NCBI GenBank assembly: GCA_030690545.1
Contig: JAUYGN010000073.1
Location: 1-36,918 of the forward strand
Direction of reading: 5' to 3'
DNA length: 36,918 nt
Source of the DNA: Solirubrobacteraceae bacterium
Lineage (GTDB): Bacteria; Actinomycetota; Thermoleophilia; Solirubrobacterales; Solirubrobacteraceae
A program made the position numbers and the translations under genes. Under the pieces are notes generated by a model. The model saw only the letters and a list, made by a program, of their open reading frames with translations, did not search any database and had not been told where the DNA came from. Below, one piece after another: positions 18,892 through 32,448 of this stretch (its first letter is position 1; every line of letters starts with the position of its first letter).

Positions 18892-19018
18892 TTGCTACGG
18901 ACTGCCGGTGGAACCCATCGGCCAACGATTGAAGAAGGAGGCACGCCGCCGCCGCCAGAGCTGGCGCGGAAGCGCGGGGTGCGTCAGTGCGCGGTTTCCG
19001 AGACGAAGGTGGCGCGGT

Positions 19019-19840
19019 GTGCTTGAGGTGGTCGGGCTCTCCAAGGAGTATCACGGCGCGAATGGGTCGACGACGGCGATCGCAGAGCTGTCGTTCTCGG
19101 TCAACGAGCTCGAGTTCGTGTCGGTCGTCGGGCCTTCGGGGTGCGGCAAGACCACACTCCTGAAGTGCATCTCCGGGCTGCTCGAGCCCTCGAGCGGAGG
19201 CTCACTTCTACGCGGCGTCAAGATCGTCTCGCCGCCCGAGGCCATGGCCCTCGTGTTCCAGGACTACGCGCGCTCGCTGCTGCCCTGGCTCACGGTCAGC
19301 GGGAACGTCGGGCTGCCGCTCCGTCGCAAGCATGCTGCGGCCGAACGCCAGCGCCTCGCCGACGAAGCCCTCAAGGCGGTCGGGCTCTCGGCCTTCCTGG
19401 ATCACTACCCGTGGCAGCTGTCGGGCGGCATGCAGCAGCGCGTCGCGATTGCGCGCGCGCTCGCCTGTCAGCCCAGGGTCCTGCTGCTTGACGAGCCGTT
19501 CGCGTCCGTCGACGCGCAGACGCGCGCCGAGCTCGAGGATCTCGTCCTCTCGCTGCGAAGCCGCTTCGACATCACCGTGCTGCTCGTCACGCACGACATC
19601 GACGAGGCCGTCTACATGTCGGATCGCATCGTCGTCCTCACGAAGCAGCCCTCGACGATCAGAGACACGCTCGACGTGGGCCTGCCGTGGCCGCGAGATC
19701 AGCTCACGACGAAGGCAATGCCCATGTTCTCGAGCCTGCGGGCTCATGTGTACCGGGAGATCGTAGAGGCCCATCGGCCGCGGCACCTCGATGCCGCCGT
19801 GGCCGATGAGCAGATGGTCGTACGTCCCGGAGTCTCCTGA
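19019..19840 (+). CDS. ABC transporter ATP-binding protein (NitT/TauT type)
   Basis: About 273 residues from GTG 19019 (VLEVVGLSKEYHG). It has Walker A GPSGCGKTTLLK, the Q-loop in LVFQDYARSLLPW, signature LSGGMQQRVAIARAL, Walker B VLLLDEPFASVD and the switch histidine in LLVTHDIDEAVYMSDR. The VFQDYxxxLLPW wording is that of the nitrate/taurine/sulfonate importer ATPases (TauB/SsuB). The frame is open upstream to a GTG at 18908, but those 37 extra residues are arginine-rich and unlike the family. It is the first gene of an importer operon with the lipoprotein and two permeases that follow. Confidence 0.9.
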   Translation: MLEVVGLSKEYHGANGSTTAIAELSFSVNELEFVSVVGPSGCGKTTLLKCISGLLEPSSGGSLLRGVKIVSPPEAMALVFQDYARSLLPWLTVSGNVGLPLRRKHAAAERQRLADEALKAVGLSAFLDHYPWQLSGGMQQRVAIARALACQPRVLLLDEPFASVDAQTRAELEDLVLSLRSRFDITVLLVTHDIDEAVYMSDRIVVLTKQPSTIRDTLDVGLPWPRDQLTTKAMPMFSSLRAHVYREIVEAHRPRHLDAAVADEQMVVRPGVS

Positions 19841-19904: not shown

Positions 19905-20918
19905 ATGACAGTCTTCGCACGCCTCAGGCGCTCGATGTATCTGATGGGATTGACCGGTTGCATGGCCGTCGCGGCGGTCGGCGTCGCTGCCTGCGGCTCG
20001 GATGACGAGGCGTCCGGGGGGACGGCGAGCGCCGACGTCGAGAAGACGGCGGTCAGCCTGTCGGTCGGCACGATCTCGCCCGTCGCCTCGATCGCGATCG
20101 GCCAGGAGCAGGGCTTCTTCGAGGACGAGGGCATCGACCTCAAGCTGAACACGACGCTTGCCTATCCGCAATCGCCGGGAGCCGTCGTGGCCGGCCAGGT
20201 CGACTTCGCCCAGCACTCCTGGGGCAGCACGCTGGCCTTCGCCGCCAACGGCCTCCCGCTGGTCACCGTGGCCCAGCTGTCGACGAGCGGAACCTCGGTC
20301 GACAACGACGACACGATGTTCGTGACACGCGACGACAGCCCGATCAAGTCCGGCAGGGACCTCGACGGCAAGACGATCGCGGTCGCCAGCCTCGCCGGCC
20401 TGAGCGAGCTCAACGCGATCACGCTCGCCGAGAAGAACGGCCTCGACAAGGACTCCGTGAAGCTCGTCGTGGTGCCGTTCCCATCGATGGCCGGTGCGCT
20501 GCGGGCCAAGCGCGTCGACGTCGCGCTGATGTCGGAGCCGTTCTACACGCAGGCAGCCGAGCAGTCGAAGATCCGGATCATCTCGCCGGGCAACGCGCTG
20601 CTGATGCCCGGCCTTCCGCTCGTGAACATCTTCACGTCGCGCTCGTTCTACGACAGCAACAGGGACGTCGTCGACCGCATGCGCCGCGCGATCAACAAGT
20701 CCGTCGAGTACGCGGCGGAGAACCCCGACGCGGTTCGCCAGATCCTTCCCGGGTTCTCGAAGGTCCCGACCGAGATCGCCGGCAGGATGCGGCTGCCCGT
20801 GTACTCCCCGACGGTCGATCTCCAGAAGGTCCAGACGCTGTCGGACATGCTGAATGCCGCCGGCCTGCAGAAGGAGAAGATCGCGGCCAAGGATCTGTAC
20901 CCAGACTCGGATTCGTAG
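19905..20918 (+). CDS. ABC transporter substrate-binding lipoprotein (NitT/TauT type)
   Basis: A 337-residue protein from ATG 19905, preceded by an AAGGAGGAGG ribosome binding site. The lipoprotein signal is RRSMYLMGL, a hydrophobic core, then a lipobox ending VAACGS. The mature part begins near VSLSVGTISPVASIAIGQEQ followed by GFFEDEGIDLKL, the NMT1/TauA-like opening, with later GAVVAGQVDFA, DLDGKTIAVAS and the DVALMSEPFY hinge region. It should capture the ligand outside the membrane. Related binders take up sulfonates, nitrate, aromatic acids or thiamine precursors, so the family alone does not give the substrate. The catabolic neighbours favour an aromatic or cyclic carboxylate (inference). 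Confidence 0.9.
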   Translation: MTVFARLRRSMYLMGLTGCMAVAAVGVAACGSDDEASGGTASADVEKTAVSLSVGTISPVASIAIGQEQGFFEDEGIDLKLNTTLAYPQSPGAVVAGQVDFAQHSWGSTLAFAANGLPLVTVAQLSTSGTSVDNDDTMFVTRDDSPIKSGRDLDGKTIAVASLAGLSELNAITLAEKNGLDKDSVKLVVVPFPSMAGALRAKRVDVALMSEPFYTQAAEQSKIRIISPGNALLMPGLPLVNIFTSRSFYDSNRDVVDRMRRAINKSVEYAAENPDAVRQILPGFSKVPTEIAGRMRLPVYSPTVDLQKVQTLSDMLNAAGLQKEKIAAKDLYPDSDS

Positions 20919-20993: not shown

Positions 20994-21866
20994 ATGAATG
21001 CGGTGGTTGATATCGAGACGGCTGCGCGGTCGACGGGGAGGGAACCGGTGCCGCCCGCGAAGGTGGGCGGCGCTCGCGCGCGCAGCGGACTCGACCGGCG
21101 CTGGGCGGCGCCCGCGCTGGGAGCTCTGGGCATCGTGCTCGGGCTGCTCGCCTGGGAGCTTGCGATCGTCGGCGGGATCGTCTCGGAGCTGGACGTCCCG
21201 CATCCCGCTGCCGTCGTCGCCGAGCTCGGATCGTTGCTGGGCGGTGGCGAGTTCTGGACCCAGCTGCGCCAGACGATGACCAATGCCGGCATCGGCATGG
21301 CGATCGCCACCGCGATCGCCGTCCCGTTGGGCATGGTGATGGGGACGGTCCAGCCGATCCGCGTTGCCCTCGGACCGGTCGTCGAGGTGCTGCGTCCGGT
21401 GCCGGGCATCGCGCTCGTCCCGCTCGCCATCGTGGTCTGGGGACCGACCGGCGGCAGCACCATCTTCCTGGTCGCCTTCGGCTGCACCTGGCCGCTGCTC
21501 GTCCAGACGATCCACGGCGTGCAGAGCGTCGACGACGTGGCGATCATGACCGCGCGGTCATTCCGCCTGAGCGGGCTGTCGCGGATCCGCTGGGTGATCT
21601 TTCCCGGCTCGCTGCCCTACATCGCGACGGGGCTGCGCATCTGCGCCGCGATAGCGCTGATCGTCGCGGTCGGCGGCGAGCTGATCATCGGCACGCCCGG
21701 CCTCGGAACCGCGATCCGCCAGGCGCAGGATGGCCTGGCGCTCGAGGAGATGTACGCCCTGATCGTCGTGACGGGCATGCTCGGCATCGCGCTCAACCTT
21801 GCCTTCGGCCGCCTCGAGCGGCGCTTCTTGAAGTGGCACCCGTCGCAGCGCGGAGCGCACCGATGA
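20994..21866 (+). CDS. ABC transporter permease 1
   Basis: A 290-residue membrane protein of the binding-protein-dependent permease family. A 40-residue cytoplasmic N-terminus precedes about six hydrophobic segments (first LGALGIVLGLLAWELAIVGG). The coupling motif with the conserved glycine of the EAA loop is around DVAIMTARSFRLSGLSRIRW, leading to VIFPGSLPYIATGLR. It belongs to the TauC/SsuC group. It ends with an ATGA overlap into the second permease, so the two are translationally coupled and likely form a heterodimeric channel. No strong ribosome binding site precedes the ATG. Confidence 0.9.
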   Translation: MNAVVDIETAARSTGREPVPPAKVGGARARSGLDRRWAAPALGALGIVLGLLAWELAIVGGIVSELDVPHPAAVVAELGSLLGGGEFWTQLRQTMTNAGIGMAIATAIAVPLGMVMGTVQPIRVALGPVVEVLRPVPGIALVPLAIVVWGPTGGSTIFLVAFGCTWPLLVQTIHGVQSVDDVAIMTARSFRLSGLSRIRWVIFPGSLPYIATGLRICAAIALIVAVGGELIIGTPGLGTAIRQAQDGLALEEMYALIVVTGMLGIALNLAFGRLERRFLKWHPSQRGAHR

Positions 21867-22657
21867 TGACGCGCCGCAGGAGCCTCGCCCTCCAGGCGGG
21901 CTTCATCATCCCCCTGCTGGCGGTGATCTACTGGTACTCCGAGGCCTACCAGAGCTTTGCCGTCGCCCCGGTGCCCGACGTCCTCGCGGCGTTCCAGGAC
22001 GCGTGGTTGTTCGACCGGGTGACCAGCGACGTGGTGCCCACCCTCGAGCGGCTCTTCCTCGGCTACGCCCTGGCGGTCCTGATCGCCGTGCCGCTGGGGA
22101 TCTGCCTCGGCAGCTCGCGACTGCTGCGGATGCTCGCGGGCCCCCTGTTCGCGTTCTTCCGCTCGGTGCCGCCGATCGCGCTGATCCCGCCCGCGCTCAT
22201 CGTCTTCGGCCTTGGCAACACGATGAAGCTGTTCCTGATCGTCGTCGTGTGCGTGTGGCCGATCGTGCTCAATGCCTCCGACGGCGTCGTCGAGCTCGAC
22301 CGCACGATGCTCGACACGACGCGCTCCTATCGCCTGAGCCGGTGGGAGCGGCTGCGCTACGCGGTCATTCCCGCCGTCGCGCCCCGGATCTTCGCCGGCA
22401 TGCACACGAGTCTGGCGTTCGCCATCATCGTCGTCGTCGCCAGCGAGTATCTCGCCGGCACCGATGGCATCGGCTTCTTCATCTTCCAGGCCCAGTCGCA
22501 ATACAGCATCGCCGAGATGTGGGCCGGCATCCTGCTGCTCGGGATGCTCGGGTTCCTGCTGAACCTCGCCTTCGTCGCGATCCAGCGACGGGTGCTGTTC
22601 TGGCAGGCGCCCGGCGAGACCCGTGCGCGCAAGGCCAGCGAGGCGGCGGCGGCATGA
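21863..22657 (+). CDS. ABC transporter permease 2
   Basis: A 264-residue permease starting MMTRRRSLALQAGFIIPLLA. It has about six membrane segments and the coupling loop DRTMLDTTRSYRLSRWERLR followed by YAVIPAVAPRIFAGM. It is similar to, but clearly diverged from, permease 1, consistent with a heterodimeric importer. It overlaps the preceding gene and the following MBL-fold gene by four bases each (ATGA), so importer and MBL-fold proteins are made from one message. Confidence 0.9.
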   Translation: MMTRRRSLALQAGFIIPLLAVIYWYSEAYQSFAVAPVPDVLAAFQDAWLFDRVTSDVVPTLERLFLGYALAVLIAVPLGICLGSSRLLRMLAGPLFAFFRSVPPIALIPPALIVFGLGNTMKLFLIVVVCVWPIVLNASDGVVELDRTMLDTTRSYRLSRWERLRYAVIPAVAPRIFAGMHTSLAFAIIVVVASEYLAGTDGIGFFIFQAQSQYSIAEMWAGILLLGMLGFLLNLAFVAIQRRVLFWQAPGETRARKASEAAAA

Positions 22658-23553
22658 CCCCCGAGCCGGTGGAGCTGGTCGCGGACCGGCTCTACGCGCT
22701 CGCCCATCGCTACGAGCTCGACGGCCGCGCCTCGACGCATCCCCCGGACGTCCGCGGGCATGCCACGATGAACGCGTACCTGCTCATCGAGGACCAGCGG
22801 GCGCTGCTGATCGACACGGGCCTCTCGATCCACCAGCAGGCGATCCTGGACCAGCTGGGCGCACTGCTGCCGGCCGGCTTCCCGCTGTCGATCTGGCTGC
22901 TGCGCATCGGCGAGTTCTCGTCGATCTGCAACGTCCGGCCGATCACGGAATCGTTCAACGTGCAGACGATCTACGGCGGGCAGGGGGAGCCTCCGAGGTG
23001 GGTGGACTTCCGGCCGGAGTTCGTTCCCGCCGGCACGCCGGTGGGCGCCGGCGCGCTGGCTGCGGTCCGCTCGGCGACCGTCTCCGCCGGCGGCACCGTC
23101 TCGATCGATCCCGGCGGCCGCGAGCTCCTCGCGTTCAACGCGCCGTTGCGGCTGCTGCCGACGCTCTGGGTCTACGACGAGAGGACCGCCACGTTGTTCA
23201 CCTCCGACAGCTTCAGCCACGCGCTGCCCGCAGGCGAGGACGCCGTCCCACTCGTCACGGACGCCAGCGAGCGCGAGGGCGCGGCGGCGCTCCTGCGCCG
23301 GCACCTCGTGCGGACGAGATACTGGTGGCTGCCGGGCGCGCGTACGTCCCTGATCCGGGAGCAGATCGCGACGATCTTCGACGGGCGCGACATCGAGCGG
23401 ATCGCTCCGGCCTACGGCTGCATCTTCGAGGGCAGGGACGTCGTCGCGCGCGAGCGCAGGCTGCTCGACGAGATGCTCGTCGCTGCCGCGGCGCAGCCGG
23501 CTGCGATCGACACGGCGCACAGCTCGCGCCGCCCGCGGGCGGCGCGCGCATGA
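22654..23553 (+). CDS. MBL-fold protein, degenerate oxygen-binding di-iron type
   Basis: A 299-residue protein. The beta-lactamase fold is seen in NAYLLIEDQRALLIDTGLSI, ATLFTSDSFSHALP and a C-terminal RYWWLPGARTSLIREQI leading to IERIAPAYGCIFEG. The last blocks resemble the ODP/flavodiiron MBL group (YWYPGA..., IAPGHGCV.G), but the expected final His is Tyr (PAYG). The metal motif HxExDH is missing: the equivalent stretch reads WLLRIGEFSSICNV. It probably cannot bind two metals in the usual way. It sits between the permeases and a second, better preserved MBL-fold protein with four-base overlaps on both sides, suggesting a complex or a regulatory partner (inference). Confidence 0.78.
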   Translation: MTPEPVELVADRLYALAHRYELDGRASTHPPDVRGHATMNAYLLIEDQRALLIDTGLSIHQQAILDQLGALLPAGFPLSIWLLRIGEFSSICNVRPITESFNVQTIYGGQGEPPRWVDFRPEFVPAGTPVGAGALAAVRSATVSAGGTVSIDPGGRELLAFNAPLRLLPTLWVYDERTATLFTSDSFSHALPAGEDAVPLVTDASEREGAAALLRRHLVRTRYWWLPGARTSLIREQIATIFDGRDIERIAPAYGCIFEGRDVVARERRLLDEMLVAAAAQPAAIDTAHSSRRPRAARA

Positions 23554-24344
23554 CCGGCTCGCTCGCGCTGCCGCGGGAGATCGCGCCGGGCGTCCATTGG
23601 CTCGGCGCCTGCCTGCAGGTCGCCTATCGCGGGACGACCCTGCATGGCTACAACTCGGTCTACCTCGTCGCCGGCGAGGAGTGCTCGATGCTCGTCGAAG
23701 CGGGGCATCCGCAGGACGCCCAGACGATCGAGGCCCAGATCGAGACCCTGCTCGCCGCCGGCGTGCCTCCGCTGCGCTACCTGTTCACGACGCATACGGA
23801 GGCTCCTCACGCGGGCGCCGTCGGGCGTCTCCTGGCCCGGTATCCGGACCTGCAGGCCTGCGGTGACGTGGAGGACCTGCACCTCGTGTTCCCCGCGTAC
23901 GCCGACCGGCTCGTCGCGCTCGAGCCCGGCGAGACGATCGACCTCGGCATGCGCCGGCTCGAAACCGTCGAGGCGGTGTTCCGCGACATGATCCGCACCC
24001 GCTGGCTCTTCGACCGTGCGACCGGCGTGCTCTTCGCGGGCGACGGCTTCGCCTACAGCCACTACCACGAGCAGGGCCAGTGCGGCCGGATGGCCGAGGA
24101 GGTCCCGGAGCTCGACGTTCCGGAGATGACGGCGCTGTTCGCGGAGCTTGCCTTCTACTGGACGCGGTTCGTCGACATCGAGCCGTACATCGCGCGCCTC
24201 GACGAGCTGATCTTCGACGAGCTGGCGGTCAGGCTCCTCGCGCCGACGCACGGGCTTCCCATCACCGACCCCGCGACCACGCTCGCACGCGTCCGCCAAG
24301 GTCTGCGGTGGGGCAGCGCCGGCAGCCGCGGCACGGTGTCCTGA
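23550..24344 (+). CDS. MBL-fold protein, oxygen-binding di-iron (ODP) type
   Basis: A 264-residue stand-alone metallo-beta-lactamase-fold protein. The fold opens with NSVYLVAGEECSMLVEAGHP. The metal motif is TTHTEAPHAG, the HxExxH arrangement of flavodiiron/ODP proteins with the usual aspartate replaced by proline. Further ligands are likely D in FAGDGFAYSHYH and H in LLAPTHGLPI. There is no flavodoxin domain. Relatives bind a non-haem di-iron centre that reacts with or senses O2 or NO. It is the last gene of the importer operon and overlaps its degenerate paralogue by four bases. Its role in substrate processing or redox sensing is not established. Confidence 0.82.
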   Translation: MTGSLALPREIAPGVHWLGACLQVAYRGTTLHGYNSVYLVAGEECSMLVEAGHPQDAQTIEAQIETLLAAGVPPLRYLFTTHTEAPHAGAVGRLLARYPDLQACGDVEDLHLVFPAYADRLVALEPGETIDLGMRRLETVEAVFRDMIRTRWLFDRATGVLFAGDGFAYSHYHEQGQCGRMAEEVPELDVPEMTALFAELAFYWTRFVDIEPYIARLDELIFDELAVRLLAPTHGLPITDPATTLARVRQGLRWGSAGSRGTVS

Positions 24345-24386: not shown

Positions 24387-25604
24387 TCAGGATGCTCGCG
24401 CCGGGGAGCCGCCGGGCACGGCCACCCGGCCCGGGAGGTCGAAGAGCGCGCGGGCGTTGTCTCCGAGGATCGCGCGCTTCTCGCGTTCGTCGAGGCAGCG
24501 CTGGTCCCAGATTATCGCCGGCGTGTCGAAGTCCGGATGCGGATAGTCCGAGGCGTACAGCAGCGACTGCGTGCCGTTCATGATGTCGATCATCGCCCGC
24601 GTGTGAGCGGAGTTCTCGTGCTCCTCGAACGGCTGTGTCGTGAAGTACATGTCGCGGATGTACTCGCTGGGCAGCCGCTGCAGCAGCGGCGCCTCCGCGG
24701 AGCGCTGCTTGTACTCGTTGTCCAGTCGCGCGATGCAGAACGGCACCCAGGCCTCGCCGGCCTCCATGTAGATCCACTTGATGTTCGGGAAGCGCTCGGG
24801 CAGCCCGGAGAGGACGACGTTGGTGAGGTGCGTCATCGCATAGAACGGAAATCCGAGGGCGTGGACGCCGAGGAAGCGCCCGAGGATCGTGAACGGCCGA
24901 TCGAACCAGTTCGGGCCCGAGTGGAACGCGATCGGCATCGAGCGCTCGTTGAGCGCGGCGAAGACCTTCATGTACTGGTTGCGGTGAAACGGCTCGTAGC
25001 GGACGGCAGTGATCATGAAGCCGACCACGCCGGCGCGACCGGCGAAGTCCTCGATGTACTGCATGCACGCGTCAGGATCGCCGAGCGGGAGGTAGGGCAT
25101 CGTGAGCAGGCGATCGCTGCATGGCAGGACGTCGTCCAGAAGCCAGCTGTTGAACGCGTGGCCCAGCTCGATCTCGATCTCGATCTGCGGCGTCAGGCCG
25201 AGGTTGAGCATCGGCGTGGGGAACAGGATCGTGTAGTCGATGCCCATGCTGTCCATCGAATGCAGGGTGGTCGCCGCGATCGGGTGCATGTCGCTCGCGT
25301 CGATGACGTGCTGCATCTGACTGATCGGCAGCCGGCCCCCGACCGAGCGGTCGCCGATGCTCTGCGGGATCATGAAGCCCTGGATGTACTCCGCGGACAT
25401 CGTTTCCAGCGGGCGCCGGATGTTGCGATTGCGGACCCGCCGGACGATCTCCGGGAAGCTGTTGGTCTCGTAGAGGTGGCTGTCGCAGTCGACGATGAAG
25501 ACGTCGTCGAGCCCGCGACGGTCCCGCTCCCGCTCGGCGTTGACCAGCATGTGCTCCTGCGTGCGCCCGGGAAGCACGCTCGCGCGTCGTGCCGTGTCGT
25601 CCAT
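24387..25604 (-). CDS. Amidohydrolase-2 family protein (ACMSD/decarboxylase-like)
   Basis: A 405-residue TIM-barrel metal hydrolase. It has the DCDSHLYE variant of the N-terminal metal motif (second His replaced, as in the DxDxHxxE subgroup), a barrel histidine in PIAFHSGPNW, another in YAMTHLTNVV, and the catalytic aspartate in LLYASDYPHPDFD. Members act as non-oxidative aromatic-acid decarboxylases (aminocarboxymuconate semialdehyde, gamma-resorcylate, 5-carboxyvanillate) or as hydrolases of ring-cleavage products. It is last in the leftward operon after the Rieske ferredoxin and the 73-residue protein, and convergent with the MBL genes. Its place in an aromatic pathway is inferred from context. 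Confidence 0.85.
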   Translation of the reverse strand: MDDTARRASVLPGRTQEHMLVNAERERDRRGLDDVFIVDCDSHLYETNSFPEIVRRVRNRNIRRPLETMSAEYIQGFMIPQSIGDRSVGGRLPISQMQHVIDASDMHPIAATTLHSMDSMGIDYTILFPTPMLNLGLTPQIEIEIELGHAFNSWLLDDVLPCSDRLLTMPYLPLGDPDACMQYIEDFAGRAGVVGFMITAVRYEPFHRNQYMKVFAALNERSMPIAFHSGPNWFDRPFTILGRFLGVHALGFPFYAMTHLTNVVLSGLPERFPNIKWIYMEAGEAWVPFCIARLDNEYKQRSAEAPLLQRLPSEYIRDMYFTTQPFEEHENSAHTRAMIDIMNGTQSLLYASDYPHPDFDTPAIIWDQRCLDEREKRAILGDNARALFDLPGRVAVPGGSPARAS

Positions 25605-25626
25605 GGGAAGCGGTCTCCTCGGCTGC

Positions 25627-25848
25627 CTAGACGTTGAAGAGGCCGGCGATCTCGAAGGAGTTGATCCCCGCGGCCTTGAGCATCGCGGCAGCGGTCACGG
25701 CCACCTCGGTGGGGCCGACCTCGCGGTTGGCGGGAAAGGGCGCGACGTCGCCGGCGTCCCGCGCCAGCATCGTGTACGCCTCGACGGCGTCGGCCAGCTG
25801 ATGCTGGACGGCGCCGATCTCCGGCGGCGGGGCGTCAGACGACGACAT
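25627..25848 (-). CDS. Conserved-looking 73-residue protein, unknown
   Basis: Begins MSSSDAPPPEIGAVQHQLAD with its ATG inside the last codons of the Rieske gene (14-base overlap) and ends AMLKAAGINSFEIAGLFNV. It is predicted mainly helical with a hydrophobic C-terminal half and no signal peptide, cysteines or histidine cluster. Tight overlap with the ferredoxin and a 22-base gap to the amidohydrolase indicate that it is a genuine operon member, perhaps a small subunit or adaptor. I recognise no family. Confidence 0.65.
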   Translation of the reverse strand: MSSSDAPPPEIGAVQHQLADAVEAYTMLARDAGDVAPFPANREVGPTEVAVTAAAMLKAAGINSFEIAGLFNV

Positions 25849-26236
25849 AGAGGTACCCGTCGCGGACGGTGAGCTCGACGGGGCGGAGCCGGTAGCGGGC
25901 ATCGTGCGCCACCCGCCCGGTCGTGATGTCGTACTCCCAGCCATGCCAGGGGCAGACCAGGCGCAGGCGCGAGTCGTCGAGATCCTCGCTGAGGACGCGC
26001 CCGCCCGCGTCGAGGTGCTGCTCGGTCTTGCCGAGCAGCACACCGGCACAGACGGGCCCGCCCTGATGGACGCAGCGGTTCTCGTAGGCGTAGAGCGTGC
26101 CGTCGACCTTGAAGATGCCGACCTCGGTCTCGCCCGCGACGTCGACGAGCAGCCCGTCGCGTTCTGGGACATCGTCGACGGGGCCGACCATGTATTCCTC
26201 CTTGGCGGCCGTGGCCTCCTGCTCCGCCGGCTTCAT
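25835..26236 (-). CDS. Rieske [2Fe-2S] ferredoxin-type protein
   Basis: A 133-residue single-domain Rieske protein starting MKPAEQEATAAKEEY (ATG 26236, AAGGAGG five bases upstream at 26242-26248). Cluster ligands are CVH in YENRCVHQGGP and CPWH in LVCPWHGWEYD, with the GRV and YLYVVV strands of the fold. Such ferredoxins donate electrons to ring-hydroxylating oxygenases or form part of nitrite/assimilatory enzymes. No oxygenase large subunit lies in the window, so its partner is either elsewhere or one of the unusual neighbours. It is the first gene of the leftward operon with the 73-residue protein and amidohydrolase. Confidence 0.9.
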   Translation of the reverse strand: MKPAEQEATAAKEEYMVGPVDDVPERDGLLVDVAGETEVGIFKVDGTLYAYENRCVHQGGPVCAGVLLGKTEQHLDAGGRVLSEDLDDSRLRLVCPWHGWEYDITTGRVAHDARYRLRPVELTVRDGYLYVVV

Positions 26237-26269
26237 CGCATCCTCCTTCAGCATCGGACCCGTCCCATA

Positions 26270-26315
26270 TCTCTATGGAGTTTGCATACTGTAGTCGCTC
26301 ACGAGACGAGGTCAA
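26270..26315 (-). promoter_or_regulatory. Promoter of the Rieske operon with operator-like site C
   Basis: On the minus strand TTGACC (26315-26310) is followed after 16 bases by TACAGT (26293-26288). The operator-like TCTCTATGGAGT (26270-26281) lies just downstream, over the expected transcription start, a typical repressor position. Confidence 0.55.
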
Positions 26316-26368
26316 GCATGATGAAACCTGAGGTAGTCGTGCCACAAGGCGACGCATCTTGCCACGAG

Positions 26369-26380
26369 CATCTATAGACT
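26369..26380. promoter_or_regulatory. Operator-like site D
   Basis: CATCTATAGACT, two to three changes from the reference dyad, lies upstream of the plus-strand OYE-type gene and back to back with site C. A TATAGA or TATGAG hexamer within or beside it could be the -10 element; the -35 is not clear. Confidence 0.5.
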
Positions 26381-26497
26381 ATGAGCATGCCTACCATGAT
26401 CGGCACGATGTGCGAAGGGGCGCGTACGGTCCCGCATCGGTGGCTGGCCGGGGCGCCACGGACGGCGTCGCGCTGCGCGGGCGGGGAGCCGGCGTGA
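26381..26497 (+). CDS. Possible 38-residue leader peptide
   Basis: From ATG 26381 to TGA 26495-26497 (MSMPTMIGTMCEGARTVPHR...), the ORF starts directly after operator-like site D and its stop overlaps the GTG of the OYE-type gene (GTGA). The coupling geometry is suggestive of a leader ORF, but composition alone cannot prove translation. Confidence 0.25.
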   Translation: MSMPTMIGTMCEGARTVPHRWLAGAPRTASRCAGGEPA

Positions 26498-27669
26498 TCG
26501 CGATCACGAACCACGAGCATCTCTTCGCGCCGCTGCAGCTGGCGGGGACGACGCTGCGCAATCGGATCGTGCAGGCTCCGATGTCGGTCTGCTATGCCGA
26601 TCCCGACGGAGGTGTCAGCGACCGGATGGTCGAGCACTACGCACGGCGCGCGCGCGGCGGCGTCGGCATGGTGATCGTCGAGAACCTCGCCGTCAGCATC
26701 GCCGGCCGGCAGCTGCCGCGCCATGCCCTCATCGACGGCGCGGACCGCTTGGACGGTCTCGCCCGGCTGGCCGGCGCGATCAAGGCCGAGGGCGCCGTCG
26801 CGGTCGTCCAGGTCGTCCACGCCGGGCGCTACGCCGGACCGTGGGAGGAGTACGCGGCCCGCCGTCGTCTGGCTCCGTCGGCGATCCCGTTCCCGCTCCC
26901 GCTCGGGGAGGTGACCCCCGACGAGGCCACGGGCGACGAGCTGCGCGAGGTCGTGGCGTCGTTCGCGCGCTCCGCCGAGCTCGCCGCGCGCGCGGGCTTC
27001 GACGGCATCGAGATCCATGCCGCCCAGGGGTTCCTGCTGTCGTCGTTTCTGTCGGCCCGCATGAACGCGCGCACGGACGGCTACGGCGGGTCGTTCGAGC
27101 ATCGCGTGCGGCTCCTGCTGGAGGTCATCGCCGCCATGCGCCGCGCGGCGCCGGACCTGCTGCTCGGCGTGCATCTCATGAGCGACGAGCTGATGGAGGG
27201 CGGATGGTCGATCGGCGACGCCGTCGAGGTCGTCCCGCTGGTCGAGCAGGCGGGCGCCGACTTCATCGTGCCGGTGGCCACGACGTTCGAATCGCTTCGC
27301 GCGCCGGCCAACGCCGGGCTGACGGCGCGGCCCAACTTCCAGCGGGACGACAGCCGCGCGGTCAAGCGAGCCGCGTCGGTGCCCGTCTTCGCCAACGGCC
27401 ATGTGTGGGACCCGCAGACGATCGAGCAGATGCTGGCGGCCGGGGAGTGCGACGCGGTGGCGCTCGCGCGGCCGCTGCTGTCCGACCCGGACTGGCCGCG
27501 CAAGGTTCGAGCGGGTCGCGAGGATGCGATCCGCACGTGCTCGTGCGATCCGCCGCTCTGCCTGCAGACCCAGATGACCGGAACGATCTGCTCCGCGTGG
27601 CCCTCGGAGCTGCAGGCCAAGGGCTTCATCGGCCTGGCGGACGCGCCCGACGACGGATCCGCGCCATGA
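26494..27669 (+). CDS. Old-yellow-enzyme-type NADH:flavin oxidoreductase
   Basis: A 391-residue FMN TIM barrel from GTG 26494, with GGGGAG five bases upstream. It has LRNRIVQAPM at the start, the QVVHAGRYA strand, and the signature GFDGIEIHAAQGFLLSSFLS with NARTDGYGGSFEHR. The usual second active-site residue (His or Asn of HxxH/N) is Gln here. A cysteine cluster, RTCSCDPPLCLQ with a fourth Cys in TICSAW, resembles the [4Fe-4S] site of dienoyl-CoA reductase-like enzymes, but the spacing differs and the C-terminal NAD domain is absent. It likely reduces an activated C=C in the pathway substrate or product. It stands between two operator-bearing regions. Confidence 0.85.
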   Translation: MIAITNHEHLFAPLQLAGTTLRNRIVQAPMSVCYADPDGGVSDRMVEHYARRARGGVGMVIVENLAVSIAGRQLPRHALIDGADRLDGLARLAGAIKAEGAVAVVQVVHAGRYAGPWEEYAARRRLAPSAIPFPLPLGEVTPDEATGDELREVVASFARSAELAARAGFDGIEIHAAQGFLLSSFLSARMNARTDGYGGSFEHRVRLLLEVIAAMRRAAPDLLLGVHLMSDELMEGGWSIGDAVEVVPLVEQAGADFIVPVATTFESLRAPANAGLTARPNFQRDDSRAVKRAASVPVFANGHVWDPQTIEQMLAAGECDAVALARPLLSDPDWPRKVRAGREDAIRTCSCDPPLCLQTQMTGTICSAWPSELQAKGFIGLADAPDDGSAP

Positions 27670-27676
27670 TCGCGCG

Positions 27677-28720
27677 TCAGCGGCCTGCGGCGGCGGACTG
27701 CTCGCGGTAGAGGCCGAGGCTGCGCATGACCGGCTCGTCGGTGTAGGAGAACACGATCGCGTCCTCCGACCCCGACCCGTTGTGATGCTCGTGCACCGTC
27801 CAGCTGGGAACGGCGAAGACGTCGTGCTCGTTCCACTCGAGCACGACGTCGTCGACGACGCTCCGTCCCTCGCCGCGCACGACGTGGTAGATCGTGTTGG
27901 ACGTGTGGCGGTGGGCGACGCCGGCGAAGCCGGGGGGGAGGCGCTGCATCCGGCATCCGATCGTCGGCATCACGGGTCCACCCGTCCATGGGTTCGTGTA
28001 CTCGAGCATGACGCCGTCGACCGCGCTGCCGTCGGCGTCGTCGCCGATGTCCGCGAATGCGGCCTCGGTCTCGCTCCACGGGTAGTTGCCGATCGGCGAG
28101 CTCAGTCCGCGCGGCGTCTCCCACGTCGGTCGCAGCTGGCCGTGGATGTACTGGCGCGTCGAGATGTCGTCCGGCATCGTGCGGGGCTGCATGCGCTCGG
28201 CGAAGACCTCGAAGAAGCCCGCTTCGAGCAGATTGACGAGCGGGTAGTCGAGCCCGTCGAGCCAGATCATCGGCCCGGTGCCCACGTCCTCGTGGTCGTG
28301 CCAGTGCCAGCTCGGCGTCAGCAGCAGGTCGCCCGGGCGCATGTGCACGCGCTCGCCGTCGACGGTCGTGCACGCTCCCTCGCCCTCGATGATCAGGCGA
28401 AAGGCGCCGGACGTATGGCGATGGGCCTGCGCCGTCTCGCCGGGCACGATGATCTGCAGGCCCGCGTAGAGGGTGCTGAGCGTCGCGGGTGGCTCGCGCA
28501 GCTCGGGGTTGACGAGCATCAGCACGCGTCGCTCGGCCTCCTCGAGGGAGAGTGCGTCGACGAAGTGCAGCATCGACGGCCGCAGCTCCGCGTAGCGCCA
28601 GATGAACGGGACCGCGCGGCTGCTGGGCTGGGCCGCGAACAGGCTGCCGTAGTACTGCCACAGCGGAGCGGCGCCCGCGCGACGGACGATCTCGTAGGGG
28701 TCGGCAGAGGTCTGGTCCAT
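27677..28720 (-). CDS. Gentisate 1,2-dioxygenase-like bicupin ring-cleavage enzyme
   Basis: A 347-residue protein with two cupin domains, the normal layout and length for gentisate/salicylate/1-hydroxy-2-naphthoate dioxygenases. The N-terminal cupin has the Fe(II) ligand motif AHRHTSGAFRLIIEGEG with PSWHWHDHED. The C-terminal cupin keeps AHRHTSNTIYHVVRGEG and VPSWTVHEHHN, so both halves look metal-capable. Such enzymes cleave the ring of ortho- or para-hydroxybenzoates with O2 and no catechol. Convergent with the OYE gene (stops about eight bases apart) and divergent from the FAH operon. The preferred substrate cannot be deduced. Confidence 0.88.
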   Translation of the reverse strand: MDQTSADPYEIVRRAGAAPLWQYYGSLFAAQPSSRAVPFIWRYAELRPSMLHFVDALSLEEAERRVLMLVNPELREPPATLSTLYAGLQIIVPGETAQAHRHTSGAFRLIIEGEGACTTVDGERVHMRPGDLLLTPSWHWHDHEDVGTGPMIWLDGLDYPLVNLLEAGFFEVFAERMQPRTMPDDISTRQYIHGQLRPTWETPRGLSSPIGNYPWSETEAAFADIGDDADGSAVDGVMLEYTNPWTGGPVMPTIGCRMQRLPPGFAGVAHRHTSNTIYHVVRGEGRSVVDDVVLEWNEHDVFAVPSWTVHEHHNGSGSEDAIVFSYTDEPVMRSLGLYREQSAAAGR

Positions 28721-28798
28721 CGCGTGCTCCCAGGGTTGCGGACGGCGGGGGCGCGGCCGGCGCGCCTGCGCCGCCCGCGTCGCACTTAGGCGCCGATA

Positions 28799-28827
28799 AC
28801 TCTATGAACTTCTCCACAGACTGTCAA
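28799..28827 (-). promoter_or_regulatory. Promoter of the bicupin dioxygenase gene with operator-like site E
   Basis: On the minus strand TTGACA (28827-28822), a 17-base spacer and TAGAGT (28804-28799). The operator-like ACTCTATGAACT (28799-28810) overlaps the -10. Confidence 0.6.
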
Positions 28828-28925
28828 CGCGGGGCTTGTCGCGTCGACGTATCGTTTCGTCGCCAGCGAGGCCCAAAGTATGGCGGGCGGGCGGTTCGCT
28901 CAGCCTTCAGATGAGCGGGCAGATC

Positions 28926-28955
28926 TTGTTCTTTTCCCACCGATCTCTATAGACT
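28926..28955 (+). promoter_or_regulatory. Promoter of the FAH/extradiol operon with operator-like site F
   Basis: TTGTTC (28926-28931), a 16-base spacer and TATAGA (28948-28953). The operator-like TCTCTATAGACT (28944-28955) covers the -10. The ATG at 28963 is only about ten bases after the -10, so the first message is probably leaderless or nearly so. Confidence 0.6.
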
Positions 28956-28962
28956 GCGCGGC

Positions 28963-29910
28963 ATGGACTACTACCTCGCGACAATCCGCCGCAATGACCG
29001 CGACGCCGCCGCACTGGTCCTCGGCGGTCGGGTCCACCCGCTTCCCGGGCAGCCCAGCTGCGCAGACGTCCTGCGCGACTGGCCGGCGTGGAAGGAGTGC
29101 CTGGCGGCGCTGGCGGCCGGCGCCGAGCGCCTCGCGCCGGGCCTGGCGATCGACGACGTGGTCCTCCGCGCACCCGTACCCCATCCGACGAACCTGTACA
29201 TGGTCGGAGCCAACTACGCCGACCACGGGGTCGAGATGGGCAGTGACGCGTTCGTCGCCGCTCGACCGCCCGAGGGGCCGTTCATGTTCCTGCGGCCGAC
29301 GACCTCGGTGATCGGGCCTCGCGATCCGGTGTGCATCGAGGACGGGTCCGATCAGATGGACTGGGAGGTCGAGCTCGGCGTGGTCATCGGGCGCCGCGGG
29401 CACCGCATCGCAGCGCACGAGGCGCGCGAGTACGTCGCGGGATACACGGTCGTCAACGACATCTCCGATCGTGGCCGCTTCGAGCGCACCACGCCGGTGC
29501 CACCGTTCAAGTGGGACTGGTTCCTGCAGAAGGGGTGGAACACCACGTGTCCGATGGGTCCCTGGCTGATCCCCGCGGAGTGCTGCCCGAACCCGGACGA
29601 CCTCGCGATCTCGCTCTCGGTCAACGGCGTGGTCGAGCAGTCGTCCAACACGACGCGCATGCTGTTCTCGATCGAGGAGCAGATCGCCCATGTGAGCGCG
29701 GTCGTGCCGCTGCAACCGGGTGACATCATCTGCACCGGCACGCCCGCGGGCGTGGGCATCGCGAAGCGCCGATTCCTCGCCCCGGGGGACGTGGTCGTCG
29801 CGGAGATCGAGGGGATCGGCCGGCTTGAGAACACCGTCGTTCGTTCCGCGCCGGATTCCGCGGTCGCGCTGCGTGCTCAAGCCGAGGCCTCACCGGTCGC
29901 CGGAGCCTGA
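28963..29910 (+). CDS. FAH-family hydrolase/isomerase 1
   Basis: A 315-residue member of the fumarylacetoacetate hydrolase superfamily. It has a variable N-terminal domain, then NLYMVGANYADHG, the metal-binding acidic set in MDWEVELGVVIGRRG, GYTVVNDISDRGR and the closing IICTGTPAGVGIAKRRFLAP. Relatives hydrolyse or isomerise acylpyruvates and 2-hydroxymuconate-type products after ring cleavage, which fits the neighbouring dioxygenases. First gene of a rightward three-gene operon with only two bases to the next start. Probable fumarylpyruvate-type or oxohexenedioate-type activity; the exact reaction is not determined. Confidence 0.87.
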   Translation: MDYYLATIRRNDRDAAALVLGGRVHPLPGQPSCADVLRDWPAWKECLAALAAGAERLAPGLAIDDVVLRAPVPHPTNLYMVGANYADHGVEMGSDAFVAARPPEGPFMFLRPTTSVIGPRDPVCIEDGSDQMDWEVELGVVIGRRGHRIAAHEAREYVAGYTVVNDISDRGRFERTTPVPPFKWDWFLQKGWNTTCPMGPWLIPAECCPNPDDLAISLSVNGVVEQSSNTTRMLFSIEEQIAHVSAVVPLQPGDIICTGTPAGVGIAKRRFLAPGDVVVAEIEGIGRLENTVVRSAPDSAVALRAQAEASPVAGA

Positions 29911-29912
29911 CG

Positions 29913-30833
29913 ATGTCCGAGTTCATCAAGCGCATGGGGCACGTCGCGCTGCACGTTCCCGATCTCGAGGCGTCCGTGACGTGGGCGACCCTCGTGATGG
30001 GACTGCGAGAAGTCGAGCGCACCGACGGCGTCTCCTACCTGACGCATGCCGACTGCCACCACTCGCTGCAGCTCATCGCCTCCACCTGCTCGGGGCTCGA
30101 TCACATCGCGATGGAGGCCCACGACGAGGCCGCCGTCGAAGACCTGACCGATCGTCTCAGGCGCGAGGGCGTGCGGATCCTCTCGGACGCCCCGCAGGAG
30201 CCCGGTCTCGCCGCCGCCGTCCGCTTCGAAGGGCCGGAGGGTCACGTCTTCGAGGTCTTCAGCGGCATGACGTCCGATGCGATCGTCCACACGGGCTCGG
30301 GCGTGCAGCCCAGGAAGTTCGGTCATCCGACGCTGACCGCGGTGGACGTCCACGCGCTCCGGGACTTCGTCGTCGAGCTCCTGGACTTCAGGCTGTCGGA
30401 CGACATCGGCGACGGGACCCTCGTCTTCCTGCGCTGCGCGGTCGACCACCACGGTCTGGGCATCGTGCGGTCGCGCGTCGCAGGACTGCATCACTACGCC
30501 TGGGAGGTCGAGAGCCTGGCGATGCTGGGCCAGCTCGGCGACGTCCTCGCGCGCAACGCGGGCGCGTTCATCTGGGGTCCCGGACGCCACGGCGCCGGCA
30601 ACAACCTGTTCACCTATCACTTCGATCCCGCGGGCGCCGTCGTGGAGTACTACGCGGACCTGTACCAGGTCTGGGACGAGTCCAGCTACCAGCCCGGGCG
30701 GTGGAGCCTCGAGGACGGTCGAGCCGAGAACCTGTGGGGCCCGAGGGGCCCCGAGGAGCTGATGGAGGTGGCCACGCCGCTGGTCGGCCGAGCCGTCACG
30801 ACGAGCGACGCACGCGAAGGCCAGCGGCCATGA
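29913..30833 (+). CDS. Type I (VOC) extradiol ring-cleavage dioxygenase
   Basis: A 306-residue two-module vicinal-oxygen-chelate protein, the usual size of catechol 2,3-dioxygenase/BphC relatives. Module 1 opens MGHVALHVPDLEASV and contains LDHIAMEA. Module 2 contains the Fe(II) ligands: H in FGHPTLTAVDVHAL, H in GLHHYAWEV, and E in AVVEYYADLYQVW. It should cleave a catechol-type ring next to the hydroxyls with O2. It is flanked on both sides by FAH-family genes in an operon and overlaps the next gene by four bases. The same island also has a cupin ring-cleavage enzyme, so two cleavage steps or two substrates are implied. Confidence 0.87.
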   Translation: MSEFIKRMGHVALHVPDLEASVTWATLVMGLREVERTDGVSYLTHADCHHSLQLIASTCSGLDHIAMEAHDEAAVEDLTDRLRREGVRILSDAPQEPGLAAAVRFEGPEGHVFEVFSGMTSDAIVHTGSGVQPRKFGHPTLTAVDVHALRDFVVELLDFRLSDDIGDGTLVFLRCAVDHHGLGIVRSRVAGLHHYAWEVESLAMLGQLGDVLARNAGAFIWGPGRHGAGNNLFTYHFDPAGAVVEYYADLYQVWDESSYQPGRWSLEDGRAENLWGPRGPEELMEVATPLVGRAVTTSDAREGQRP

Positions 30834-31687
30834 AGCTCGTCTCGTTCGACGGCGGTCGCCTGGGGTCAGTCGACGGGGACGAGGTCGTCGACCTCGGACA
30901 GCGGGCCGCCGCGGCGGGTCATCCCGGCGCGACGCTCGAGGATCTCGTGCGCGGCGAGCTGCTCGACGACGCACGGCGGTGGTCGCTCGCCGGGCTGCCC
31001 CGCCGTCCGATCGGCGCCGTTCGCCTCGAAGCCCCGCTGTGCCGGCCGGGCAAGATCGTCGCCGCGCCCGTGAACTACCGCGCCCATCAGGACGAGATGG
31101 AGTGGCCCACGAGCGTCGAGGATCTCGGCGTCTTCCTGAAGGCGCCGAGCTCGATCATCGGGCCCGGAGACGAGATCAGCCTGCCCTACCTCGACGTTCG
31201 CACCGATCAGGAGGGCGAGCTCGCGGTCGTCATCGGCAGGCGGGCGCGGGACGTCACGCTCCAGGCGGCGCTGGATCACGTCGCCGGCTACACGTGCCTG
31301 CTCGACATCACGACACGCTCGACGGAGGACCGCTCGATGCGCAAGTCGTTTGACACCTTCACGCCGCTGGGGCCCTGCCTGGTGACGGCCGACGAGGTCG
31401 CCGACCCTGATCGGCTGCGGCTGCGCTGCTGGGTCAACGGGCGATTGCGCCAGGACGCGTCGACCGCACAGATGATCTTCTCGGTGCCACTGCTGATTGC
31501 GTACGCCAGCTCCGTGCTGACGCTCCAGGCGGGCGACATCCTCGCCACGGGTACGCCTGCGGGCGTGGGCCCGCTCAGCGGTGGCGACGAGATCTGCGTC
31601 GAGATCGAACGGGTCGGACGACTCGAGGTGGGGGTCAGCGCCGAGCGCGCGACGGCCTATGCCGAGCGGCCCAGGGTCGCGGGCTAG
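30830..31687 (+). CDS. FAH-family hydrolase/isomerase 2
   Basis: A 285-residue FAH-superfamily protein starting MKLVSFDGGRLGSVDGDEVV, the common short N-terminal domain. It continues KIVAAPVNYRAHQDEM, the metal segment TDQEGELAVVIGRRA, GYTCLLDITTRS and ILATGTPAGVGPLSGGD. It is clearly distinct from FAH protein 1, so the two probably act on different intermediates. The ATG overlaps the extradiol dioxygenase stop (ATGA). The TAG stop overlaps the stop of the convergent GntR gene, an extremely tight packing. Confidence 0.87.
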   Translation: MKLVSFDGGRLGSVDGDEVVDLGQRAAAAGHPGATLEDLVRGELLDDARRWSLAGLPRRPIGAVRLEAPLCRPGKIVAAPVNYRAHQDEMEWPTSVEDLGVFLKAPSSIIGPGDEISLPYLDVRTDQEGELAVVIGRRARDVTLQAALDHVAGYTCLLDITTRSTEDRSMRKSFDTFTPLGPCLVTADEVADPDRLRLRCWVNGRLRQDASTAQMIFSVPLLIAYASSVLTLQAGDILATGTPAGVGPLSGGDEICVEIERVGRLEVGVSAERATAYAERPRVAG

Positions 31688-32430
31688 GCGGGCGTCTTGA
31701 CCCAGTTGGTCACGAGCTGAACCGCCGTGCGCGTGGCGGCGGCGTCAGCCTCGGGCGCGAGGTAGGCGATCAAGGTGTGGGCGGTGCGCGCGAGGTGTCG
31801 TGCCAGCGCGACGGCCGCCTCCTGTGGCTCGCGGCGCACGCAGGCGTCGACGATGCCCTGGTGCTCTGCGTTGGCCACCGTCCAGCCGCGTGGGGAGGAT
31901 CCGAGCACGGAGAGGTGCCGATAGCGCTCGCTGCGCTCGCGCAGCATCTGGATGAGCCGATCCTGCGGCGGCGACGCCGCGCTGACGAGCCGGCAGTGAA
32001 AGGTGAGGTGCTCGACGTCCCAGGCGGCCAGATCCTTTGCCTCCGCGTACCTGTCCATCCGCTCGAGCAGGTCGTTGAGCTCGCTGAGGTCGTCCTGGGT
32101 CATCGCCGGCACCGAAAGCGTGATGGCGACGGCCTCCAGCAGCACGCGGGCGCTGTAGACGGCATCGAGATCGTCGACGTCCAGCTGTGGCACGCGCGCG
32201 CGCCGGTTGCGCTCGATCTCCAGCAGGCCCTCTGCCTGCAGGAGCCGCATCGCCTCGCGGACCGGTGTGGTGCTGACGCCCAGGCGCTTGGCGACCTGAA
32301 CCTGCGACAGGATCGTCCCCGGCGCGATCTCCCCGTTCAGGATCATGCCGCGGAGCTGGTCGGCGAGCTCGCTGCCCGGCCCATCTCCATGTCGTGACCC
32401 GTTGCCGGACTGTGAAGAGGAGGGCACCAT
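31684..32430 (-). CDS. GntR-family (FCD) transcriptional regulator
   Basis: About 248 residues from ATG 32430 (MVPSSSQSGNG; an in-frame GTG at 32445 is possible). The N-terminal winged helix has GEIAPGTILSQVQVAKRLGV followed by STTPVREAMRLLQAEGLLEI. The FCD effector domain has the metal-ligand pattern D and H in AAWDVEHLTFH, H in NAEHQGIVDA and H in LARHLARTAH. FCD regulators are usually repressors relieved by small carboxylates. Its position in the middle of the island, together with the repeated dyad at the promoters, including a weak copy in front of its own gene, makes it the best candidate regulator (inference). Confidence 0.88.
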   Translation of the reverse strand: MVPSSSQSGNGSRHGDGPGSELADQLRGMILNGEIAPGTILSQVQVAKRLGVSTTPVREAMRLLQAEGLLEIERNRRARVPQLDVDDLDAVYSARVLLEAVAITLSVPAMTQDDLSELNDLLERMDRYAEAKDLAAWDVEHLTFHCRLVSAASPPQDRLIQMLRERSERYRHLSVLGSSPRGWTVANAEHQGIVDACVRREPQEAAVALARHLARTAHTLIAYLAPEADAAATRTAVQLVTNWVKTPA

Positions 32431-32448
32431 CGGCGAAGCGTACACCGA

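Follow-up and report, generated by a model that had tools for sequence, protein, structure and literature searches.

The locus described here lies in a stretch of 36,918 nucleotides from a Solirubrobacteraceae bacterium (GenBank assembly GCA_030690545.1, contig JAUYGN010000073.1, positions 1 to 36,918), the whole of which is called the window in the following. Two overlapping genes in the window, P1 and P2 (Table 1), encode stand-alone proteins of the metallo-β-lactamase (MBL) fold that belong to the lineage of the flavodiiron proteins (FDPs) and the oxygen-binding diiron proteins (ODPs), and in both of them the MBL domain takes up the full chain. P2 harbors a conserved but altered set of metal ligands, most of which are missing from P1. 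The two proteins are read here as forming a single heteromeric metalloprotein, most probably an enzyme with P2 as the catalytic partner, whose two chains would go back to the tandem duplication of an MBL domain of the flavodiiron type; the probability of this reading is put at roughly 60%. Successive ATGA overlaps at 21863 (permease 1/permease 2), 22654 (permease 2/P1), and 23550 (P1/P2) connect the pair to an ATP-binding cassette (ABC) importer. The first-pass annotation of this DNA had both MBL genes joined to the permeases in this way, which is right for P1 and permease 2, but the only direct contact with a permease gene is that of P1, and P2 overlaps P1 alone.

Table 1. Features of the P1/P2 locus, given in window positions.
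Feature	Position	Strand	Basis
P1, metal-less ODP/FDP-type MBL protein, 299 aa	22654..23553	+	Translation, 87-homolog conservation, profile-profile alignment to P2, AlphaFold2, PDB fold comparison
P1 Arg84, beside the lost first His	22903-22905 (codon)	+	86/87 homologs
P1 Tyr254 (PAYG), replacing the last His	23413-23415 (codon)	+	78/87 homologs
P2, metal-site-bearing partner, 264 aa	23550..24344	+	Translation, FprA alignment, 91-homolog conservation, AlphaFold2, fold comparison
P2 motif 2, HTEAPH, residues 82-87; Pro replaces the FDP ligand Asp	23793..23810	+	H82, E84, H87 in 91/91; P86 in 90/91
P2 Asp146, replacing the FDP ligand His (motif 3)	23985..23987	+	Asp in 91/91; aligned to the His of FprA LHWPDS; outgroup states
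P2 His234 of PTHG (motif 5)	24249..24251	+	91/91
ATPase of the ABC importer, NtrCD/TauB-like; open reading frame (ORF) given, within which the gene probably starts further downstream	18908..19840	+	NCBIfam
ABC importer substrate-binding lipoprotein, SsuA/NMT1-like; start inferred from signal sequence	19905..20918	+	NCBIfam, ORF
ABC importer permease 1	20994..21866	+	NCBIfam
ABC importer permease 2, ATGA overlaps with permease 1 and P1	21863..22657	+	NCBIfam, Pfam BPD_transp_1, sequence
ATGA overlap, permease 2 stop/P1 start (ATG at 22654)	22654..22657	+	Sequence
Amidohydrolase (Amidohydro_2), convergent with the pair	24387..25604	-	Pfam; also near the pair in L044, L127
Rieske [2Fe-2S] ferredoxin-like protein	25838..26254	-	Pfam; also in L044, L127

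The lineage of both proteins is illustrated by their predicted structures. The AlphaFold2 models (pLDDT 89.6 for P2 and 89.2 for P1) were compared with known structures by VIA, in which flavodiiron chains reach Z values of about 22-27 and ODP chains of 20.9-23.8, followed by true β-lactamases with values of 19.5 at most. P2 is closest to the coenzyme F420H2 oxidase FprA (2ohh, Z 27.2) and further resembles ODP (6qwo, 23.8) and LACTB2 (20.1). P1 resembles ROO (1e5d, 26.1), the Flv1 core (24.8), ODP (6qwo, 23.4), LACTB2 (18.9), and lactamases (18.0), in this order. LACTB2, PqsE, and class B lactamases were rejected as the nearest fold, as they rank under the FDP and ODP entries. A phmmer search of the PDB with P2 likewise returns FprA (2ohh, E 1.9e-14); the single P1 sequence has no match there, and a P1 profile gives weak matches only. 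Both proteins stay under the gathering threshold of the Pfam ODP family (PF19583, 27.2 bits) with 23.1 bits for P2 and 17.2 bits for P1. The Lactamase_B threshold of 22.7 bits is exceeded by P2 (32.4 bits) and missed by P1 (12.8 bits). Neither protein matches a flavodoxin family or carries a flavin-reductase domain (Pfam, NCBIfam). The description of two overlapping ODP-type MBL genes without flavodoxin domains is thus confirmed in both coordinates and fold.

The conserved site of P2 consists of H82-E84-P86-H87-D146-D165-H234. In an alignment of the P2 profile to FDPs, two of the seven ligand positions are changed, with Pro86 in place of an Asp and Asp146 in place of a His. H82, E84, H87, D146, D165, H171, H173, and H234 do not vary across the 91 P2 homologs, of which only one lacks P86. 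The constancy of F162, D165, Y169, and H171 is partly selected by the pattern with which the genome collection was scanned (Fx[GSA]D[GA][FC][ASG]Y[SML]H); the other residues lie outside of it. The motifs HTEAPH, with Pro for Asp, and PTHG had already been recognized in the first-pass annotation, which missed that P2 is not canonical elsewhere either: the motif-3 His has also been lost to the invariant Asp146. To our knowledge, this ligand set has no precedent. Altered ligand sets as such are known among ODPs (PMC7785958). Directly past the bridging Asp, residues 171-178 (24060-24083) form an HxH(x4)C motif, which is constant in the bacterial P2 set except for one Cys to Thr exchange and whose first His falls within the search pattern. 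It is possible that this motif provides an additional contact to metal or substrate.

P1 takes on a different appearance. Profile alignment places the motif-2 Glu (E87, 86/87 homologs) and the bridging Asp (D185, 87/87) at their expected positions, and the remaining ligands correspond to I/L85, M/D89, S90 (77/87, third motif-2 His), a deletion of the motif-3 residue beside R166 (87/87), and Y254. Conserved residues of its own are R84, E87, N93, R166, W172, D185, W225, and G255, each found in at least 86 of the 87 homologs. P1 is therefore a pseudo-form with a conservation pattern of its own and not a random wreck. The Tyr in PAYG had been noted correctly; the accompanying statement that the ligand motif is lost altogether goes too far, with Glu87 and Asp185 kept and a near-invariant Arg84 beside the first lost His.

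P1 is under purifying selection. The median dN/dS is 0.21 for P1, with a maximum of 0.45, and 0.13 for P2 over 157 pairs of related loci, which are not independent of each other. A functionless, decaying duplicate of P2 would account for the loss of four of six metal-site positions in P1, and relatives with intact ligands occur in haloarchaea and Paracoccus. The dN/dS values, the invariant residues, and a reading frame that is open wherever P1 is whole have led to the rejection of this explanation, to which the full support for a monophyletic P1 clade is likewise opposed; hardly any likelihood is left to it. As the ligand loss is common to the whole P1 clade, the window copy is not a case of fresh decay.

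P1 and P2 each form one clade with full support. The relatives in haloarchaea and Paracoccus also constitute a tandem pair, whose members a and b both carry H-[DE]-P-H ... D ... D ... H, and the two FDP outgroups carry H-E-D-H-H-D-H. By the simplest reading, the site was rebuilt before P1 lost its ligands. The best tree under a mixture model groups P1 with member a (support 83/76). Approximately unbiased (AU) tests do not reject the alternative groupings of P1 with b (p 0.11), P2 with a (p 0.33), and P2 with b (p 0.10), and a simpler model places P1 outside. Orthology of P1 to the haloarchaeal member a is favored but not proven by these trees. Homologs of P1 with intact ligands, which had been named as a sign that this copy is simply decayed, do exist in the form of the a members that group weakly with P1; simple decay does not follow from them, as the loss is clade-wide.

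The pairing of P1 and P2 is near-obligate. A scan of 84,980 species genomes yielded 119 relatives, 80 of which were kept (57 Alphaproteobacteria, 10 Betaproteobacteria, 5 Actinomycetota, 3 Nitrospinota, 1 Tectomicrobia, 1 labeled Thermoflexus, and a few unplaced). Plasmid records from Rhodococcus, Arthrobacter, Agrobacterium, Roseomonas, Paracoccus, and haloarchaea were added. P1 adjoins P2 in 84 of the 85 loci that hold both genes complete and lies 1.9 kb apart in the remaining one (L042). In five further P2 loci P1 is missing or incomplete because the contig breaks off no more than about 600 bp upstream. The adjacency is kept in the three loci in which P2 comes before P1, and possible P2 start codons are found a few to about twenty bases from the P1 stop in nearly all loci. 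When genomes were searched with P1 as the seed, each P1 with a checked flank had P2 next to it, and this also held for a second copy in genome G520. In one locus (L066, 4677-5564), an intact P1 adjoins a P2 that is split by an in-frame stop, either a pseudogene or an assembly error. The evolutionary distances of P1 and P2 are correlated over 54 loci (r = 0.956), a value that none of 2000 permutations reached or even approached, with none above 0.37. The pattern as a whole is not due to chance, as all of its features are conserved in about 90 homologous loci.

Co-occurrence in both directions, matched divergence, purifying selection on P1, and an adjacency that persists through the swap in gene order are the reasons for which P1 and P2 are read as a heteromer, in which the two chains would be in physical contact. 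Two separate proteins of one pathway, with P2 as an enzyme and P1 as a metal-free binding or chaperone-like protein outside any stable complex, could show the same co-occurrence, which by itself does not tell a complex from two pathway steps. P1 also evolves faster than P2 (mean distance 0.60 versus 0.47) and has invariant residues of its own. Such an arrangement is nevertheless held to be quite improbable for paralogs that belong to a lineage whose known members dimerize and whose genes show translational coupling or close spacing at almost every locus. The suggestion of an active/inactive pair in the first-pass annotation, which left the choice between a heteromer and an O2/NO sensor, is accordingly retained in its first half: a metal-bearing and a metal-less protein form a conserved pair that is very probably heteromeric, and no result points specifically to the sensing of O2 or NO.

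The pair is rare. Counted with the query genomes, it occurs in 4 of 249 genomes of the class of the window, 2 of 296 in a sample of its phylum, 3 of 289 in the class of genome G519, 1 of 394 in the class of G522, and 4 of 268 in the family of G518. This patchy spread across taxa suggests horizontal transfer. The pair labeled Thermoflexus (L026) stems from a metagenome-assembled genome; its P2 is 99% identical to that of two betaproteobacterial contigs (L028, L029), and it is probably a contamination of the bin. In the public records that were read, both proteins are mostly annotated as "MBL fold metallo-hydrolase" and "hypothetical protein".

The genes around the pair vary from locus to locus. 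According to a clustering of the flanks, no flanking family is as constant as the pair itself, and a fixed partner gene or pathway was rejected, as the most frequent family, TctC, is present in just 17 of 56 locus groups. Importers are enriched, however: transporter-family genes account for 26 of 192 genes within two genes of the pair and 21 of 406 at a distance of four or more (odds ratio 2.9, p = 0.0009). The transporter set was derived from the clustering with seven seeds, one of which, labeled EamA_b, is a doubtful transporter and is confined to loci with EamA. Among operon neighbors, TctC is the most frequent Pfam family, ahead of ABC permease and ABC ATPase, after which HbpS-like, EamA, and NMT1-like proteins follow with equal counts. 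In four loci (L030, L054, L063, L072) HbpS/GlcG-like genes (family f11) stand beside genes of the tripartite tricarboxylate transporter (TTT) and the pair, as another accessory of such clusters. The importer itself can be of the TTT, ABC, or tripartite ATP-independent periplasmic (TRAP) type, and the neighboring pathways differ as well. Halalkalicoccus and Halocatena have the pair in a row with TctCAB, in Paracoccus it adjoins a ProXWV-like importer, and in Natrinema zhouii (L127) the row consists of a TRAP importer, an amidohydrolase, a Rieske protein, and the two MBL genes. Beside the constant pair the importer type is variable, and a tie to this ABC importer, as stated in the first-pass annotation, is not supported.

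In the window, the pair is followed by genes for an amidohydrolase, a Rieske protein, an OYE-type flavoprotein, a cupin, an FAA hydrolase, a VOC dioxygenase-like protein, and a GntR/FCD regulator (24387-32445), which apparently form an aromatic catabolic cluster. Searches by tblastn in the other fetched loci found homologs of the Rieske gene in two, of the amidohydrolase in two clearly and weakly in a third, of the OYE and VOC genes in four each, of the FAA hydrolase in ten, and of the cupin in none. An amidohydrolase and a Rieske gene near the pair are shared by only three of the fetched loci, from an actinobacterium (window, 24387-26254), an alphaproteobacterium (L044, 13586-16671), and a haloarchaeon (L127, 4496-5787). 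In the Rhodoplanes locus L044, VOC, Rieske, and amidohydrolase genes lie 3-6 kb downstream of the pair; a VOC gene is thus also present in both bacterial loci of this set. The oxygenase genes of the window were rejected as general partners, as Rieske homologs occur in just two other fetched loci and the cupin in none. The tie to the oxygenase pathway is not supported in the form in which it had been proposed, and the links to this pathway and to this particular ABC importer are local circumstances.

The Rieske genes also bear on a possible function as a reductase of O2 or NO without flavin, to which a separate donor such as a Rieske ferredoxin would pass electrons and which would shield oxygen-sensitive catabolic enzymes. 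The FDP lineage of the pair, the motif-2 Glu, and the Rieske genes near the pair in the window, in Rhodoplanes, and in Natrinema zhouii are in line with this function. Against it stand the changes at two of seven FDP ligand positions, the restriction of the window-type Rieske gene to two other fetched loci, and the operon neighbors: no flavodoxin, rubredoxin, flavin-reductase, or other electron-transfer family recurs among their 25 commonest Pfam families. A reductase is therefore considered improbable.

The genome of the window contains a second P1/P2 pair on contig C122 (L018, 7301-14928), with identities of 61% for P2 and 43% for P1. It again lies with an ABC ATPase, a binding protein, and a permease, the last of which comes after the pair, ahead of genes for a GAF histidine kinase and a DpiA-like response regulator. 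Such an arrangement would suit a cytoplasmic sensor of O2, NO, iron, or redox state, in which the metal site of P2 binds the ligand and P1 passes the signal to the neighboring transporter or regulator. O2 sensing is known in this lineage from the ODP of Treponema and Thermotoga, a stand-alone protein (PMC7666581, PMC7785958), and both models match ODP structures (Z 20.9-23.8). A constant regulator or chemoreceptor beside the pair is missing, however, with LysR genes accounting for 4 of 84 adjacent genes and no chemoreceptor (MCP) family among the 25 commonest Pfam families listed for adjacent and operon genes. In addition, the diiron ligand set of FDPs and ODPs is altered in P2, and both proteins miss the Pfam ODP cut-off. 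A sensor is thus unlikely, if somewhat less so than a reductase.

In the favored heteromeric metalloenzyme, P2 would carry the catalytic metal site in a form rebuilt from that of FDPs by the exchange of Asp for Pro in motif 2 and of His for Asp in motif 3. P1 would be a pseudo-subunit that lost most of its ligands long ago and may have been kept to complete the dimer, bind the substrate, or shape the active site of P2 across the interface. The pair would be an accessory module that moves among catabolic gene clusters with importers. Its substrate is probably the compound taken up or one of the first intermediates; an action on an imported small molecule is proposed because importers are enriched beside the pair. 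Hydrolytic or lyase-like chemistry is preferred to the reduction of O2 or NO, since a flavin domain and a recurring redox partner are missing and the ligand set is altered; this is a preference and not a result. Three observations weigh against this picture. The motif-2 Glu is kept, a feature by which FDPs hold iron (PMC7785958), so that a redox reaction is still conceivable. Two proteins that work one after the other without contact would equally be expected to show co-inheritance and matched divergence. Lastly, only 21 of 55 loci have a transporter family within two genes, so that the importer link is enriched and not universal.

The pair is the tightest gene pair in its clusters, in several phyla and in archaea. 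If the heteromer is real, it represents an MBL enzyme acting together with a paralog that has no metal, outside photosynthesis and RNA processing, and it would also provide a missing step in many uptake-and-degradation clusters. The pairs with two metal sites in haloarchaea and Paracoccus and those with one in most of the bacteria found offer a natural series for studying how pseudo-subunits originate. Tentatively, and with somewhat more doubt than confidence, the pair can be regarded as the founder of an undescribed class of heteromeric MBL metalloenzymes (or sensors) of bacteria and archaea, with a new H-E/D-P-H ... D ... D ... H site, a dedicated metal-less subunit in most bacteria that have it, and a reaction on which many different catabolic clusters with importers would depend. 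The part of the literature that was searched held nothing relevant on paired MBL proteins, whether from catabolic operons or from the surroundings of TTT transporters.

The assignment as a heteromeric metalloenzyme with P2 as the catalytic subunit draws on the analogy with FDP dimers, cyanobacterial FDP heterodimers, CPSF73/CPSF100, and INTS11/INTS9. In the dimers that known FDPs form, each active site is completed by the partner subunit, and the cyanobacterial heterodimers combine a canonical FDP with a ligand-poor paralog (PMC4390876). With FDPs such as FprA, ROO, and flavorubredoxin, the pair shares the MBL fold, and they are the best match of P2 in sequence and structure and of P1 in structure. 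It differs from them in the absence of a flavodoxin/FMN domain, in the ligand set (H-E-P-H-D-D-H in P2, H-E-D-H-H-D-H in FDPs), and in having two paralogous chains instead of one.

The class-C FDP pairs Flv1/Flv3 and Flv2/Flv4 are likewise paralogs that are kept together and of which one has a degenerate metal site; the Flv1 core is among the structural matches of P1, and Flv1-type FDPs cannot bind metal (PMC7785958). For Flv2/Flv4 the heterodimer has been shown, and for Flv1/Flv3 it is functionally required (PMC4390876). These proteins, however, function in photosynthesis and contain flavodoxin and flavin-reductase domains, and their metal-bearing partner is canonical, which P2 is not. The ODP of Treponema and Thermotoga resembles P1 and P2 as a stand-alone FDP-type MBL domain of similar length, with the difference being that it is encoded by a single gene and coupled to a chemoreceptor in Treponema. 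CPSF73/CPSF100 and INTS11/INTS9, finally, are heterodimers of an active MBL protein with a metal-less or inactive paralog (PMC4819959), as is proposed for P2 and P1, but are eukaryotic RNA-processing nucleases from a distant branch of the MBL fold.

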